Origin: Bradymonas sediminis
GTDB taxonomy: Bacteria > Myxococcota_A > Bradymonadia > Bradymonadales > Bradymonadaceae
DNA length: 64,000 nt
Direction of reading: 5' to 3'
NCBI RefSeq assembly: GCF_003258315.1
Contig: NZ_CP030032.1
Span: 3,412,501-3,476,500, forward strand
Shown: positions 41,716 to 49,452 of the stretch, in pieces
Position numbering within the stretch: position 1 is the first letter of the stretch
Layout of the letters: each line of letters opens with the position of its first letter
Notes under the pieces: model-generated
Told to the model about the DNA's origin: nothing
The model's input: only the letters and a program-made list of their open reading frames with translations
Database searches by the model: none
Translations under genes and position numbers: made by a program

Positions 41716-42735
41716 TCAGGGTGTCTTTTTGTTCGGGTTGATCTGAGCTGGCATCGTGAACTTGCGCTCAAGGGTTTTATAATACCCGGGGCGGGTACCA
41801 ACATCGGTCTTTAATTCGCCGAAGATTCGGCCCACCATCGGAAAAGCCTGAAAATGGTGGTAGGTCAGCCGAACACCCACTTCGCTATTTTCCTCGAGGA
41901 CGACGACCTCGGAGGCGTGAAAGGCGAAGGTAAGTTTGCGGGTGGTTCGCGCCGGCCAACTCGAGGTGTCCAGGGCGTTACTGAAGCTGGAATCCATCTC
42001 GGGAAGGTTGGTCATATTGGTCCCCATCAAAAACCCTGTGGCCGCGGTCTTGCCAGCGCTGCCGGTATCGGTCGAAAACGCTGGCAATTGCGAGCCCATC
42101 ATCACACCGCGCAACTCAATGAAGCGCTCGTTTTGAATCGAAACGCCCTGGATAAATTCACCAGGCGCGACCGGGGCGAGCACCACCGCAGCCTGGGCAT
42201 GGGCCAGGTCTTTGACCATAGCGGAGGTGACGCCACGTCGGCCTTCATCGGCCTCGGAGGACCACAGCCAGGCCGTGCGACCGGACTGAAAGACCGCGGC
42301 GTTGACCAATAAGCCCGCGATATTATTCACCGCCAACTGCGCGATTCCGAAGGTGAGCAAAAAGAAGATCGGCAGGATGACCAGCGTTTCGGTCATCACA
42401 GAGCCTCGCGGCATCCCCAACACCTTGTGCACCGGGGCCCGCCGGGAGCTAACCACCTCAAATAGAATCACCGCCAGCGCCCACAGGCAGGCGGCCATGC
42501 CGACAAAGAGCAGCGCGTCCAACCAACTCAAACGCAGGAATTCCGTATATTTGGCGGACTCCCACACGATCTCAAGGGTCGAGCGCGACACAAACGGCAG
42601 AAGGAGCAACGCAGCGGTCGCCATCACCCCGAGCCCGTGGGCGCCAAGCCGCACACCCCAGGCACGCGCGGAGCCGCGCTGCGGCGTGGGCGATGAATTA
42701 TTATCTTCATTTTTTCGGGGCATCACATTTCTCAT
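41716..42735 (-). CDS. TadE-like membrane protein with extra N-terminal helices
   Basis: This 339-residue protein has two hydrophobic helices near residues 35-100 (GLGVMATAALLLLPFV; ALLFVGMAACLWALAVILFEVV) that precede the TadE-type helix GSVMTETLVILPIFFLLTFGIAQLAVN (about 109-135). The remainder is periplasmic. The Glu inside the third helix is in the pseudopilin position. The ATG overlaps the stop of the upstream gene in an ATGA, so it is coupled to it. The extra helices make it unlike typical TadE and suggest a specialised version. Confidence 0.8.
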   Translation of the reverse strand: MRNVMPRKNEDNNSSPTPQRGSARAWGVRLGAHGLGVMATAALLLLPFVSRSTLEIVWESAKYTEFLRLSWLDALLFVGMAACLWALAVILFEVVSSRRAPVHKVLGMPRGSVMTETLVILPIFFLLTFGIAQLAVNNIAGLLVNAAVFQSGRTAWLWSSEADEGRRGVTSAMVKDLAHAQAAVVLAPVAPGEFIQGVSIQNERFIELRGVMMGSQLPAFSTDTGSAGKTAATGFLMGTNMTNLPEMDSSFSNALDTSSWPARTTRKLTFAFHASEVVVLEENSEVGVRLTYHHFQAFPMVGRIFGELKTDVGTRPGYYKTLERKFTMPAQINPNKKTP

Positions 42736-44381
42736 CGCAATATATCCAGCATGGGTGACTCCGAATCGATTCCACTCTTCACTGCTTTATCGTACGCGTC
42801 GTCAACCTGTTCTTGATATTGTTGACGCTCTCCGGGGCTGGTGTGTTTTTTTAAATCACTCCATCGGTACCGGTTTTGATTAATCTCCTCTTGCAATTGT
42901 TGGACCATCGCCGGTCCGTCGGGCAGCTTATTATCCGTGGTATATTGTTGAAGTATCCGGGCATAGTTGGCGTGATTGCCCTGGAAGCCACGCGCGGCGT
43001 GCCGCAGCCTCGGGTCGATGCCGCCGGGAAGGTTCGAGGGCGCCAACGCCGAGTTCATCAGCCCCATGACATCATTCATCTCCCCGGCCTGGCTGGCGTT
43101 CGCACTGACCCCCAGCGCGATCTGCGCATTGCGTATCTGAGCGAAGAACGCGCCGATGGCCTTGTGTACCAGGGCGCTCGCCGTGACGACCGCGGAGGAG
43201 CGGGTCTCAGCAGCGATCGGGGCGCATAGGTCGGCGCTTCGCTGCGCCGGCGCTGCCCACTGCGTGCAGATATTCTTCCACTGGCTCGTGCTGCGCCCGC
43301 CATCCTCGCCATCGACACATCCCTGGTGGCTTGAAACCGCCTCCAACCCGTCGACAAACTCCTGCGCGTTCGGGTCGTTCAACACCCCATCACAGCCCAG
43401 AGAGAGCACCCAGTCACGCCCCGGCGCCGTGCGCATCAAGGTCGACTCGAATTGCTGAAACTCCCGGCGAGAGGCATCCATCCCCGAGAAGGCATATGGA
43501 AGAAGCGCCGAAAACAGGCGCTGACGGCGCCCCGCGTTTAACTCTCCGGCGTCGCCCAGGTCCGCCACGTATTCAGCGGGTTCACTATAGCGAGCGGTGA
43601 GCGCTTCGGCGCAACACGTGGCTTTTTCGGCGTTCATATTATTGGCAACGCACTCGGTTAACCCGAGGGTCGGGGGATGCGAAGTGTGCACGCTAAAGAT
43701 TGCCGGGGTAACCCGACAAACCAGCGCTGCATCCTGGCGGTCAAGCGCCAACTCCCAACGCCGCCAAAACTCGGAGCGGAGCCGGGCGGCGCCGGGCGGG
43801 TCAACCTCAGCCACCCGATTGATGCACTCGACACCTTCGGCGGGCGTATCAAAAAGGGTCGACACGATATTATAGGCCGTCGCCCCCTCATTCTGAACGC
43901 CCAGGGTCGTGCAGGCCTCGACACGAACCTCTCTGCTGCCATCACTCAGGGCGCGCACGCGGGTCTCATCGGGAAAATGCTGCGCGAATAACTGAACCGC
44001 AAGGGTGCGAACCGTCCCGAGGCCCCAGGCAGCCGTTGGCAGCGCGATAATCACACAGATCCCGAGCCCCTTTATAAACGCAGCTTTCCGGCCCTGCTCG
44101 CAATAGCCGAACCCAATCAGAGCGCTCAGGAAAACTGCGATTCCCAGCGCCAACATCAGCGGCAGCCAGGGGGCGAGCCATTGGTAGATGGCCATAAACC
44201 CGACCAGGGCCGTGCCGCTCACCGCGCCCGCGATGAAGAGGTTTCGCGCGTCGCGAAATCCCGGCTGAGGCGGCGCGGGCGAACCCCCAAGAGCCCCCTG
44301 ACCGGGGCGATTCGACGCCGGATGCCCCCCAGGCATTCGCTGAGGCGCAAACTGCGGCGATGATTTGGGAAGCTCTGGCAT
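42732..44381 (-). CDS. Multi-helix membrane protein, first gene of the Tad-like operon
   Basis: This protein of 549 residues has a Pro/Gly/Gln-rich cytoplasmic N-terminus (1-45), three hydrophobic helices (LFIAGAVSGTALVGFMAIY; LPLMLALGIAVFLSALIGFGY; FIKGLGICVIIALPTAAWGL) and a large periplasmic region with at least nine cysteines (for example CCAEAL, CDGVLN, CVDGEDG, CTQW, CAPIAAE) expected to form disulphides. I do not recognise a family. A possible operator lies about 30 bp upstream. It leads an operon whose other members are TadE/TadG-like, so it may be an assembly or anchoring factor specific to this pilin-like system. Confidence 0.75.
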   Translation of the reverse strand: MPELPKSSPQFAPQRMPGGHPASNRPGQGALGGSPAPPQPGFRDARNLFIAGAVSGTALVGFMAIYQWLAPWLPLMLALGIAVFLSALIGFGYCEQGRKAAFIKGLGICVIIALPTAAWGLGTVRTLAVQLFAQHFPDETRVRALSDGSREVRVEACTTLGVQNEGATAYNIVSTLFDTPAEGVECINRVAEVDPPGAARLRSEFWRRWELALDRQDAALVCRVTPAIFSVHTSHPPTLGLTECVANNMNAEKATCCAEALTARYSEPAEYVADLGDAGELNAGRRQRLFSALLPYAFSGMDASRREFQQFESTLMRTAPGRDWVLSLGCDGVLNDPNAQEFVDGLEAVSSHQGCVDGEDGGRSTSQWKNICTQWAAPAQRSADLCAPIAAETRSSAVVTASALVHKAIGAFFAQIRNAQIALGVSANASQAGEMNDVMGLMNSALAPSNLPGGIDPRLRHAARGFQGNHANYARILQQYTTDNKLPDGPAMVQQLQEEINQNRYRWSDLKKHTSPGERQQYQEQVDDAYDKAVKSGIDSESPMLDILR

Positions 44382-44776: not shown

Positions 44777-45577
44777 TCACTCGCCCTGCGCGCTGAGCCC
44801 CTCAAACCGGCGCACGGACAGCTCGAGATACTCGTCGGACTGGTCGATGCCGACGTAGCGCCGGCCGTTCTCGACCGCGGCCAGGCCGGTGGTCGAGGAA
44901 CCCGCGAACGGGTCAAGGATCAGGTCGCCCGGATTGCTGGCGGCCCGAATGATACGGTTGAGCAATTTGATCGGCTTCTGAGTGGGGTGCTTGCCGAAGC
45001 CCTTCTCGGCCTTGCGCGGGCTCATGATATTCCACAGATTCTTCATCTGTTTGCCGCCGTTCTCTTCCTTCATCGTCTGGTAGTTGAAGGTATGCTTGGT
45101 CTTGCTGTCGCGGCCGGCCCAGATGATGGTCTCGGTGCCGTGGGTGAAGTAGCGGCAGGACAGGTTGGGCGGCGGGTTGACCTTGAACCACGCGATATCG
45201 TTGAGGATTTTATAATCCAGGGACTGCATCGCGAAGCCGATGCTATAGATGACGTGGTGGGTGCCGCTGACCCAGATCGAGCCATTGGGCTTGAGCAGAC
45301 GTTGACACGCAGCCAGCCAGCGCAGGTTGAATTCGTGGTTCGCCTGGACACCTTCAGAGCGGTCCCAGCGGCCCTTGTTGACCGAAACCATCCGCCCATT
45401 TTTGCAGGTCATGCCGCCGTTGGAGAGGAAATACGGCGGGTCCGCGAAGATCATGTCGAAGGTCTCGGGTTCCATCTGCTCGAGAATCTCGAGCGAGTCA
45501 CCGCGCAAGAGGGTAAAGCCGCGCGGGTCATCAAAATAGACGTCGAGGTCGCTATCGTGCTGTTCAAGAGTTTGCAT
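44777..45577 (-). CDS. DpnA-like DNA adenine-N6 methyltransferase, probably GATC-specific
   Basis: This 266-residue methyltransferase has catalytic motif IV DPPY in FADPPYFLSNGG (about 44-55), SAM motif I DPFAGSSTTG near residue 228 and PNLSCRYFTHGTETIIWAG in the middle. The order motif IV before motif I marks the beta class. Several blocks (FLSNGG, MVSVNKG, NLSCRYFTH, GKHPTQKP) closely resemble pneumococcal DpnA (M2.DpnII), which methylates adenine in GATC; that comparison is from memory. No restriction enzyme lies beside it, so it looks like an orphan, regulatory-type methylase. The ATG at 45577 has AAGGA seven bases upstream; the longer frame to 45670 lacks support. It is divergent from the BKACE gene across a GATC-rich gap. 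Confidence 0.9.
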   Translation of the reverse strand: MQTLEQHDSDLDVYFDDPRGFTLLRGDSLEILEQMEPETFDMIFADPPYFLSNGGMTCKNGRMVSVNKGRWDRSEGVQANHEFNLRWLAACQRLLKPNGSIWVSGTHHVIYSIGFAMQSLDYKILNDIAWFKVNPPPNLSCRYFTHGTETIIWAGRDSKTKHTFNYQTMKEENGGKQMKNLWNIMSPRKAEKGFGKHPTQKPIKLLNRIIRAASNPGDLILDPFAGSSTTGLAAVENGRRYVGIDQSDEYLELSVRRFEGLSAQGE

Positions 45578-46037
45578 CGTGACATCCTTGTCTGAAAAGT
45601 GACCCGCAATCCTAGCAGGCCGGCCTTGGTGCTCAACTCGCGTCCATGCGAGTGGGCCATCCTTGGCCATTAATTGAATCCATCCGTGAATCGCCGTCGC
45701 ACACTACCTTGCAGCGGACTGCAAGGGTCTGGCTCCCGTCAGGATCTCATCCAGAGATCTCTCAATGACTAAAAATGCGCTAAGCCACTGGAATTGATCG
45801 GGAAAACCGGGAAAAAAATTGATGTAAAAAAGCCCAATTGATCTAATGATCTCAATCCGTTAGGCCGATCATGCACACAAACTAGGACGCGATGATCAGC
45901 AGAGTCAAGGAGGTTTTGCTCACAAGATCGCGCCCCGATCTTTTAAGAGCGAGCGCATCGCATTGCCGCACCGGCGCTGGATTGGTATAGCAGCGGGATG
46001 CAGCGACGAAATCGACCCATTTTCGCGTGGAGCCCGG
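45578..46037. promoter_or_regulatory. Divergent regulatory region with dense GATC sites
   Basis: These 460 bp separate the methyltransferase from the BKACE operon. The part from 45743 to 45940 has nine GATC tetramers (45743, 45756, 45796, 45840, 45848, 45867, 45894, 45926, 45937) in an AT-rich setting, including a hairpin AAGATCG-CGCCC-CGATCTT with a short T run (45924-45944). Nothing coding is evident here. Confidence 0.65.
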
Positions 46038-46913
46038 ATGAATTTAGACGACAAAAAAATCATCATCACCTGTGCACTCAACGGTGTACTCACCGACCCG
46101 AATACACACCCCGTTCCATTTCGGCCCGAAGACATGGCGGCGAGCGCGCGCGACGCGTACAACGCCGGCGCGTCGGTGGTGCACGTCCACTTTCGCGAGC
46201 AATCCGGGGGGCAGCTGCCCTCCTGGGACCCAGCGCTGGCCAGTGAGTGCGTGGACGCGATTCGCCAGGCCTGCCCTGGCATCCTCATCAACTCGACCAC
46301 CGGCGTGGTCGGCAGCGACATCCGCGGGCCGCTGGATGTTATCGAGCGCGTCAAGCCCGAGATGGCCGCGCTCAACGCCGGCTCGCTCAACTACCTAAAG
46401 GTGCGCCGCGACGGCAGTTGGGCCTGGCCGCCGATGCTCTTCGACAACCCGGTCGACAAGGTTCGCGCGTTCCTGGAGGTCATGCAGGCAAACAATATCG
46501 TGCCGGAATGCGAATGCTTCGACACCGGCATCGTGCGCAGCCTCGCCATGTTCGAGGAGAACGGCATGCTCAACAAACCATACACCGTCTCGTTGGTGCA
46601 GGGCGTCGCCAGCGGCATGCCCGCGCGCGTGGACTTATTGCCAATCCTGGTCGACCTCCTGCCCGAGGACGCCCACTGGCAATCGGTGGTCATCGGGCGC
46701 GCCGAGGTCTGGCCCATCCACCAGCGCACCGCCGAGTTGGGCGGACATCTTCGCACCGGCGTCGAGGATACCTTCTACCTTCCCGACGGCAAAAAGGTCG
46801 GCGAGAAGGGCAACGGCGCGCTTGTCGCCGAACTTAGTAAAGTCGCCCGCGCGGTCGGTCGCGAACCCGCCACAGCCGCCGAAGCGCGCGAAATCATTCT
46901 GGGAAAACAATGA
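46038..46913 (+). CDS. BKACE-family beta-keto acid cleavage enzyme (DUF849)
   Basis: This 291-residue TIM-barrel enzyme of the BKACE family splits beta-keto acids with acetyl-CoA or another CoA thioester and uses a zinc ion. The start IIITCALNGVLTDP, the metal-binding segment VVHVHFREQSGG, INSTTGVVG, MAALNAGSLNYL, CFDTGIV and a late VGVEDTFY-like stretch (LRTGVEDTFYLPDG) follow the family pattern. The exact substrate cannot be predicted. GGAG lies five bases before the ATG at 46038, preferred to an upstream frame extension. It overlaps the following lipoprotein gene by four bases, so they are translated together. It is divergent from the methyltransferase. Confidence 0.9.
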   Translation: MNLDDKKIIITCALNGVLTDPNTHPVPFRPEDMAASARDAYNAGASVVHVHFREQSGGQLPSWDPALASECVDAIRQACPGILINSTTGVVGSDIRGPLDVIERVKPEMAALNAGSLNYLKVRRDGSWAWPPMLFDNPVDKVRAFLEVMQANNIVPECECFDTGIVRSLAMFEENGMLNKPYTVSLVQGVASGMPARVDLLPILVDLLPEDAHWQSVVIGRAEVWPIHQRTAELGGHLRTGVEDTFYLPDGKKVGEKGNGALVAELSKVARAVGREPATAAEAREIILGKQ

Positions 46914-47701
46914 CAATCCAAACACTTGCACGCTCAACATCCATACTTCGCGCCTCATTGCTGGCCACGAGCCTGCTGCTGGGGACCACCGGCTGCGACG
47001 CAAACCCGGGCGCCCCAGAAGCCAGCGCCCCGGTCGACACGAGCGATTGCACGCCGCGCGCGCCCAACGCCGCCGACCAGGCCGGCGAGGCCGACCCGCG
47101 CGTACTTCGCGGCGTCGTACACGCCCCCTTCGGCAAACTCGCCGCATACCAACCCGCCCATGCGCCCGCGCTGCCCGCACGCTCCCCCTTCCCCGACTGG
47201 CTGGTCGGCACCGCTGAAGCTGCGCCCCTTGACACCGAGCGCACTGTCCCCGAAGCGACCGTGCACCTGTATAAAATCGACGCCCGCGGCGCGCGCACGG
47301 GCGAGAATATCGCCGAGACCACCAGCGACTATGGCGGGAATTGGTGCATTCGACTGCCCGAAGGCGTCTCCCCCGGCCCCGGCCTGATGGTCGAGGCGCG
47401 CGCGGCAGACGGCGCCACCAGGCTGCGCCGCAGCGTCGTCGCGCCCTTCGCCGGCGACACCTTTGTGGGGACCGAGGCGCTCACCCGTCTACTGCAGGCC
47501 AACAACGTCGACTTCCTGCGCATATCGACCGAGACCTACATCAACATGGAGTCCATCGCCGACACCCGCATGGACCTGCTCGACCCGGTGGTCTTAACCC
47601 CGCAGACCAACGTCGAAGACGCGGTCGAGCAGATCCGCAGCCGATTGGCCACGGACCCTCGCCTGCTCGAGAAGATCGAGAAGACCCCGAAGACAAAATA
47701 G
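46910..47701 (+). CDS. Lipoprotein with a transthyretin/carboxypeptidase-regulatory-like domain
   Basis: This 263-residue exported protein has the lipobox TTGC (Cys29), a Pro/Ala/Asp linker, and a beta-sandwich segment (VPEATVHLYKIDARGARTGENIAETTSDYGGNWCIRLPEG, about 110-150) of the kind in carboxypeptidase-regulatory or transthyretin-like domains. An alpha-helical tail follows. The stop-start overlap (ATGA) with the BKACE gene means the two are coupled, although the enzyme is cytoplasmic and this protein is in the envelope. What links them is not clear. A strong terminator follows. Confidence 0.78.
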   Translation: MTIQTLARSTSILRASLLATSLLLGTTGCDANPGAPEASAPVDTSDCTPRAPNAADQAGEADPRVLRGVVHAPFGKLAAYQPAHAPALPARSPFPDWLVGTAEAAPLDTERTVPEATVHLYKIDARGARTGENIAETTSDYGGNWCIRLPEGVSPGPGLMVEARAADGATRLRRSVVAPFAGDTFVGTEALTRLLQANNVDFLRISTETYINMESIADTRMDLLDPVVLTPQTNVEDAVEQIRSRLATDPRLLEKIEKTPKTK

Positions 47702-47763: not shown

Positions 47764-47781
47764 AACCTCGAAGAAGACCTC

Positions 47782-48150
47782 GGCTCCCCGTATAAGCCGG
47801 ATCTTGTCTCGCTCGACGCGAGGGTGCTCATTCATCTAGGCCGGCTATTGCTAGACGGCTCATGCAGCTACCTGGCGCCAGCGGAGCGGGCCGCTCCGGA
47901 GCTCCCCGAGGGGCGCTCGACACCTATTCGCCTTGCATCAAGTGGGGTTTACAAAGACAGACGATGTCACCATCGCCCCGGTGAGCTCTTACCTCACCTT
48001 TGCACCCTTACCGCGCCAGGCGCGGCGGTTTATTTTCTGTTGCACTGTCCCTAGGGTTACCCCCGGTCGGCGTTACCGACCACTCTGCCCTGCGATGTCC
48101 GGACTTTCCTCCTGAGCGGTAAACCGCCCCGGCGAGCACCTTGGAGAGCC
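47782..48150 (-). ncRNA. rnpB: RNase P RNA, bacterial class A
   Basis: On the minus strand the RNA reads from GGCTCTCC at its 5' end to GGGGAGCC at its 3' end, which pair to form P1. It includes the near-universal GAGGAAAGTCCGGAC block with a GGTAACGCC element shortly after (48050-48120) and the 3' ACAAGATCCGGCTTATACG block (about 47790-47815). It is about 369 nt long, typical of class A. It is the catalytic RNA that trims tRNA 5' leaders. It is followed on its strand by the bidirectional terminator at 47723-47763. It is downstream of the zinc-ribbon gene and rpoD/dnaG on the same strand. Confidence 0.97.
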
Positions 48151-48270
48151 GAGATCTTCTTCGATTCTTTACGAACGCTGCGTGCGCAACTTCGCGTGAT
48201 CTTCTCGGGCGGGTTCAAACCGGCGGCTGCGACCCAGGGGCCGCAGCCGCCGACCGAAGTCCCGATACAA

Positions 48271-49379: not shown

Positions 49380-49452
49380 TGGGCCCACCAGGATTCGAAC
49401 CTGGGACCGACCGGTTATGAACCGGGGGCTCTAACCGCTGAGCTATGGGCCC
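49380..49452 (-). tRNA. tRNA with CAU anticodon, probably tRNA-Ile2
   Basis: The minus strand reads as a complete cloverleaf of 73 nt: acceptor GGGCCCA / TGGGCCC with discriminator A, D-arm GCTCAGCGGTTAGAGC, anticodon stem-loop CCGGTTCATAACCGG and T-arm CCAGGTTCGAATCCTGG. The anticodon is CAU, and no CCA is encoded. The D-loop length and AGCGGTTAGAGC resemble the Ile2 (AUA-reading, lysidine-modified) tRNA more than elongator Met, but sequence alone does not settle it. Confidence 0.9.

Follow-up and report, generated by a model that had tools for sequence, protein, structure and literature searches.

Among bacteria, two circuits that tie DNA methylation to the cell cycle have been studied in depth, that of Dam in the Gammaproteobacteria and that of CcrM in the Alphaproteobacteria. 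The Dam system marks GATC and is accompanied by SeqA and by MutH, which cuts unmethylated GATC. According to PMC10073500, SeqA of E. coli binds GATC sites both in oriC, where there are eleven, and at the dnaA promoter, where there are eight. In the CcrM/GcrA system the methylase is GANTC-specific, and Caulobacter GANTC methylation is described in PMC3973325 as acting directly on ctrA, dnaA, ftsZ, mipZ, and most probably ccrM. A third group that matters here is the DpnA (M2.DpnII) enzymes, which belong to DpnII/Sau3AI/MutH-like cassettes. For the order Bradymonadales, a search at the level of titles and abstracts found nothing on methylation or on arrays of the kind described below, and at that same level nothing on this subject came up for GATC/oriC in Myxococcota or Myxococcus, for DpnA autoregulation, or for MutH outside Gammaproteobacteria.

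The locus of interest lies in a 64,000-nt stretch of a Bradymonadales genome (the window). Its methylase gene is on the minus strand at 44777..45577 and encodes 266 aa, which we identify as an orphan DpnA-type DNA adenine methyltransferase from its PF01555 match, the reading frames of its orthologues, its neighbours, and its place in a tree. The full open reading frame extends up to 45670, but the additional N-terminal part is not conserved. The start is placed at the inner ATG, 45577, because stops interrupt the frame upstream of it in some orthologues and because that ATG is directly preceded by a conserved ribosome-site motif. Pfam gives N6_N4_Mtase (PF01555) at 8.3e-57 with a marginal Cons_hypoth95 match, and no DNA-binding domain in addition. 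DPPY and, later, DPFAGSSTTG can be read in the translation of this beta-class enzyme, DPPY preceding the SAM-binding motif as the N6_N4_Mtase domain has it.

The order methylase shares with CcrM the state of an orphan beta-class adenine methylase that is vertically kept, and CcrM, with target sites at dnaA, the origin, and probably its own gene according to PMC3973325, is also its best sequence match in the PDB (195 bits, versus 101 bits for a protein labelled DpnA). It is not a full-length CcrM, as it scores 235 bits against the CcrM equivalog profile where the cut-off is 830, and aligns to profile positions 5-249 of 350. Unlike in the CcrM system, the clustered tetramer of the order is GATC. 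GANTC was set aside as the relevant site, being unclustered with 3 in the 550 bp upstream of the window methylase and 0-6 upstream of the orthologues. Since the best PDB match is to CcrM and not DpnA, the case for GATC is made by the cassette partners and the enrichment of sites. PADLOC, among its highest-scoring matches listed, offers only generic type II or orphan methylase models.

The cassette partners come from 80 relatives fetched on genome contigs, 72 of which (L073-L144) are from outside the order and are 55-65% identical. A Dam-type, DpnII or MutH/Sau3AI-like neighbour stands beside 28 of these 72, and the number rises to 46 if a PDDEXK_11-like neighbour is accepted as a partner (neighbours were counted by BLAST cluster in the flanks that were fetched, and Pfam and NCBIfam were run on ten of the neighbour proteins). 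Such nuclease and Dam-type neighbours place the methylase family with GATC cassettes. The tree, from which L141 was left out for its three stops, puts the order methylases as one clade among the cassette enzymes (SH-aLRT 94, with its two families at 97 each). The preliminary description of this DNA had called the gene DpnA-like and of GATC type, and on these sequence relationships that call is supported; we take it that the enzyme would modify the adenine in GATC.

The order gene departs from the cassette enzymes in having no recognised nuclease or Dam-type partner, in having an array at its promoter, and in being inherited order-wide. By Pfam, the neighbours of the window methylase are Tad-like genes and BKACE, plus one ORF on each side with no Pfam match (42732-44381 and 46910-47701), and a DpnII-type restriction-modification system at the window locus was rejected, no cognate nuclease being recognised beside the methylase. 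Upstream of the out-of-order relatives there is no GATC array, the count being at most 4 per 400 bp in 69 of the 72 loci, with the other three excluded for having too little upstream DNA.

Two observations on the relatives stand apart. The PDDEXK_11-like small protein (L074:3786-4346 and 25 other loci) is the commonest downstream partner of these methylases, is accompanied by Dam at 8 of the 26 loci that have it, and is possibly an undescribed GATC nuclease. There is also a second methylase clade with no recognised cassette partner (L098, L106, L114, L122, L123, L126, L128, L131), which is made up of Myxococcus/Pyxidicoccus and one record labelled Comamonas, and has support 100 with L139. Near the methylase genes of that clade GATC is rare (0.1-0.6 per 400 bp), with no array.

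The array itself occupies 45743..45940, where an exact tetramer count finds nine GATC in 198 bp, starting at 45743, 45756, 45796, 45840, 45848, 45867, 45894, 45926, and 45937. No other 198-bp stretch of the window is as dense, the runner-up among independent ones having 6, and the window as a whole is GATC-poor with 308 observed versus 404 expected. Under an order-1 Markov model, the probability of at least nine GATC in 198 bp is 1e-5 with window composition, 3.5e-5 with composition from the intergenic region, and 2e-4 with the composition of the cluster itself. The cluster and its AT-rich setting were the starting observations of the preliminary description, and both hold, with G+C at 45% in the array region versus 61% for the genome.

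The array region is the predicted promoter and leader of the methylase gene. The predicted promoter spans 45879-45908 on the minus strand, with a TTGACT -35-like element at 45903..45908 and, after an 18-bp spacer, a TAGTTT -10-like element at 45879..45884 that agrees with TATAAT at only 3 of 6 bases. One GATC sits in the spacer at 45894..45897, a position kept in most family orthologues, two are upstream of the predicted promoter, and six are in the assumed leader. A GATC within the pattern TTGAC-N16-18-TANNNT is found at 13 of the 16 loci of the window's family, even at the GATC-poor L023 and L024, by a pattern framed after reading the orthologue sequences and without a shuffle control. With a pattern loosened at the first base of the -35, 3 of 5 loci of the second family have it too. 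The GATC-bearing match is absent at L017 and L019, and at L021 it is by eye only, with a weaker -10. A generic promoter and terminator scan found nothing at the methylase promoter.

The question is then whether the array belongs to the methylase or only happens to be next to it. Within the order, whose membership is anchored by Lujinxingia vulgaris, 21 of 26 genomes carry the methylase, among them all 13 of the good ones (at least 90% completeness, at most 5% contamination); many of the order genomes are drafts, and the five with no match are 77-87% complete. Upstream of the 21 orthologues, taking 400 bp each except for 318 bp at one locus, GATC is enriched 3.4-fold (194 seen versus 56.7 expected from the same loci). 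The enrichment exceeds 2-fold in 16 of the 21, and 14 are significant singly at P<0.05 versus their own regional dinucleotides, the exceptions being L014, L017, L018, L019, L022, L023, and L024; the count in 550 bp ranges from 1 to 22. At the methylase loci the exact GATC is 2.51-fold enriched, six classes of one-mismatch variants are at 0.55-0.87 of expectation, and the bases flanking GATC carry little information, so that a unit of methylation fits better than a longer factor site. By these comparisons the array belongs with the methylase promoter and is kept across most of the order, as exact GATC with no longer shared motif.

Such a search for the cluster in relatives had been proposed along with the first report of it, which set the cluster in the gap between the methylase and the BKACE-lipoprotein operon. 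That operon is not part of it: the array follows the methylase, and neither the BKACE nor the lipoprotein gene was found at the loci of 28 relatives (about 1.5-3 kb per side, some less); BKACE was accordingly rejected as the array-regulated gene. Autoregulation of the methylase, an epigenetic switch, and an origin-like site had been offered as three options, and autoregulation becomes the likeliest, the array following the methylase promoter across the order.

The origin-like site was decided by GC skew. In the sampled DNA, going from about 4.53 Mb past the contig start to about 2.05 Mb, skew is for the most part positive, and over the remaining half it is for the most part negative, so the switch is at about 4.53 Mb and the array, at 3.458 Mb, is in mid-arm; a replication origin at the methylase array was thus rejected. 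There is a GATC array at the skew switch itself (C1:4534103-4534247, 8 per 198 bp), in the gap between dnaN and recF, adjoined by a DnaA-box-like sequence read by eye, and this gap is likely oriC. The dnaA gene is at the contig start, 0.51 Mb from the dnaN-recF array, and has an array of 11 GATC per 198 bp upstream. With the skew switch and the dnaN-recF array that far away, the dnaA-upstream array was dropped as the origin of the genome, and no DnaA boxes were found upstream of this dnaA at up to 1 mismatch to TTATCCACA.

Dense GATC clusters elsewhere in the genome would speak against any special role, and in the quarter sampled they are not common in non-coding DNA. Including the window, 1,230,500 bases were sampled, 24.4% of the 5,045,683-base contig (5.05 Mb), and the background over 976.5 kb of the genome is 0.92 GATC per 198 bp overall and 0.66 in non-coding DNA. 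Only three non-coding 198-bp stretches in the sampled 24.4% have at least 7, those being upstream of dnaA (11), at the methylase (9), and upstream of dnaN (8). Coding stretches can hold 7-10, with the maximum of 10 in a (DP)n repeat, and a further stretch of 6 is inside a tatC-like gene (named by eye); these were set aside as coding and not counted as arrays.

The dnaA array, like that of the methylase, recurs in the order. Of 19 order genomes, 16 have more GATC in the DNA preceding dnaA (up to 700 bp) than a regional dinucleotide null predicts (P<0.05), versus 3 of 21 scored class controls, control L223 being unscorable; the dnaA start was set at the first in-frame ATG, a choice that is wrong for some genomes and affects positions more than it does counts. 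For the densest 198 bp the median is 7 in the order versus 2 in the controls (Mann-Whitney p 1.2e-6, uncorrected for kinship), and at the dnaA loci GATC is at 2.35-fold with one-mismatch variants at 0.57-1.26. Upstream of dnaN the enrichment is weaker than that of dnaA, reaching P<0.05 in 7 order genomes out of 16 (the window genome G000, and G010, G003, G016, G006, G017, G023) and 2 of 5 controls (G029, G034). Over 18 genomes the strengths of the methylase and dnaA arrays are weakly correlated (Spearman 0.26, p 0.30 by count; 0.47, p 0.049 by densest stretch).

In these respects the order resembles the Dam/SeqA/MutH system, having GATC arrays at dnaA and at the probable oriC, and it differs in that the methylase promoter itself carries an array and the methylase is a beta-class enzyme of DpnA type and not Dam. 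Dam (PF02086, MethyltransfD12) was found in none of 10 family genomes, the window genome included, and in 1 of 5 second-family genomes, versus 21 of 22 class controls. SeqA, a further point of difference, was absent from all 18 genomes searched, with a positive E. coli control. MutH is a likeness for part of the order at most: 8 of 12 family genomes have it, none of 4 second-family genomes does, 2 of 2 class genomes give weak matches, and the window's own genome lacks it. The four family MutH proteins scanned (L247:2914-3582, L248:2790-3461, L249:2908-3606, L250:1362-1997) all pass the NCBIfam MutH equivalog cut-offs and come from genomes with no Dam, and by eye there is no restriction cassette beside their genes. 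Where MutH is present and Dam is not, another enzyme should be marking GATC, which argues for the DpnA-type methylase in that role.

Our reading, to which we give a probability of roughly 0.64, is that the array is a methylation-sensing control region of the orphan GATC methylase, working as a feedback coupled to replication and sharing its mark with dnaA and oriC. The domesticated DpnA-type enzyme would methylate GATC; passage of the replication fork would leave the array hemimethylated; this would change the access of RNA polymerase at the GATC-bearing promoter spacer and leader; and fresh methylase would re-methylate the array and reset the promoter, matching enzyme level to replication. 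As to direction, we lean slightly toward a promoter that is on when hemi- or unmethylated and off when fully methylated. That arrays of the same tetramer are also upstream of dnaA and at oriC suggests one methylation clock for methylase, dnaA, and origin. Several observations weigh against this reading: the seven orthologues with no significant enrichment, the loci lacking a GATC-bearing promoter match, the missing SeqA and, in the window genome, the missing MutH, the weak correlation of array strengths, the dnaA arrays of some class controls that have Dam, and the best PDB match being GANTC-specific CcrM. The architecture is read from the sequence; that GATC is marked, that a protein reads it, and which way the control runs we infer.

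The alternative that survives best, although we think it unlikely, is a sequestration pad, in which a SeqA-like protein would bind hemimethylated GATC runs at all three places (methylase promoter, dnaA, oriC) and keep them silent for part of the cell cycle. The same type of array at three replication-linked places and at no others in the sampled non-coding DNA is what such a pad would look like, as are the SeqA-bound sites of E. coli oriC and the dnaA promoter mentioned above. Spacings in the dnaA arrays point the same way, those of 10-12 bp being commonest (44 of 125 among spacings up to 40 bp), but this helical spacing is less clear in the methylase arrays, SeqA is absent from all 18 genomes searched, and no candidate reader was found.

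A transcription factor blind to methylation, with a GATC-containing site through which it controls both methylase and dnaA, would account for the spacer GATC in 13 of 16 family promoters and for arrays common to dnaA. We consider it improbable, as a typical site of that kind is longer, whereas here the exact tetramer alone is enriched, its variants are not, and its flanks are uninformative; moreover the gene that shares the array with dnaA is itself a GATC-type methylase. Direct autorepression, with the methylase binding its own unmethylated array as repressor or decoy and no later reading of a mark, agrees with an array at the orphan's own promoter that out-of-order relatives do not have, but is very improbable for a protein with no extra DNA-binding domain and leaves the dnaA and oriC arrays unexplained. 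A chance pile-up, such as the coding stretches with 7-10 GATC show can arise, is hardly credible given the probabilities above and the recurrence at the same promoter over the order.

The feedback reading can be extended to the history of the order, tentatively and at somewhat less than even odds. Bradymonadales may have built its own Dam-like replication marking, by losing Dam, capturing a DpnA-type methylase from a restriction cassette, and carrying arrays at dnaA, oriC, and the methylase's own promoter, with MutH reading the mark in part of the order and another protein replacing SeqA. The parts are known, and what is new is the combination of a DpnA-type orphan, an array at its own promoter, arrays at dnaA and oriC, and MutH without Dam or SeqA. 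If true, this would be a third circuit, in a distant order and with a methylase from a restriction system, having its arrays at the same kinds of place; it would mean that circuits of this kind have evolved again and again, and that a cell without SeqA can make use of GATC arrays at dnaA. It also gives a target to search for in Bradymonadales, namely the protein that reads hemimethylated GATC arrays.

Some Dam-bearing class controls also have dnaA arrays, clearest in G051 and weaker in G029 and G056, and most have none. Those of G051 (L222) and G029 (L207) are in class relatives that have Dam and no orthologue of the order methylase, and so such arrays may predate the swap of enzymes.

The leader offers a separate lead. 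With the transcription start assumed 7 nt past the -10, a predicted 5' leader of about 295 nt would occupy 45578..45872 on the minus strand. Two motifs in it resemble the consensus of CsrA sites. One is GGCCAAGGATGGCC at 45655..45668 (minus strand), an inverted repeat with GGA between the arms, and the other is ACAAGGATGT at 45582..45591 (minus strand), which overlaps the ribosome-binding site right before the ATG. The inverted-repeat pattern GGCCANGGATGGCC is found at 12 of 16 family loci and none of the 5 of the second family, and the ACARGGAWGT-like sequence at the methylase start codon at 13 of 16 and none of the second family; in mononucleotide shuffles they occur 0.0 and 0.0097 times per region, respectively. 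A csrA gene is in all 10 genomes searched. The hairpin with GGA is not formed in the predicted minimum free energy fold of the window leader, so the CsrA idea stays a lead, suggesting a possible second, translational layer of control.

A few minor features were met along the way. An Rfam scan of the window matched only an RNase P RNA (class A, 47777-48151, minus strand) and a tRNA (49380-49452, minus strand). The 27 TTWTCCACA matches of the window genome include a single close group, in which three TTTTCCACA boxes lie within 242 bp upstream of a secA-like gene (G000:C1:4412150-4412391, which is L181:12150-12391); four GATC fall in the interval 4412218-4412323. The gene immediately upstream of the array at dnaA encodes a 785-aa protein (L145:17243-19600, which is G000:C1:5042926-5045283) with 17 PPR_2 repeats, an unusual protein for a bacterium.
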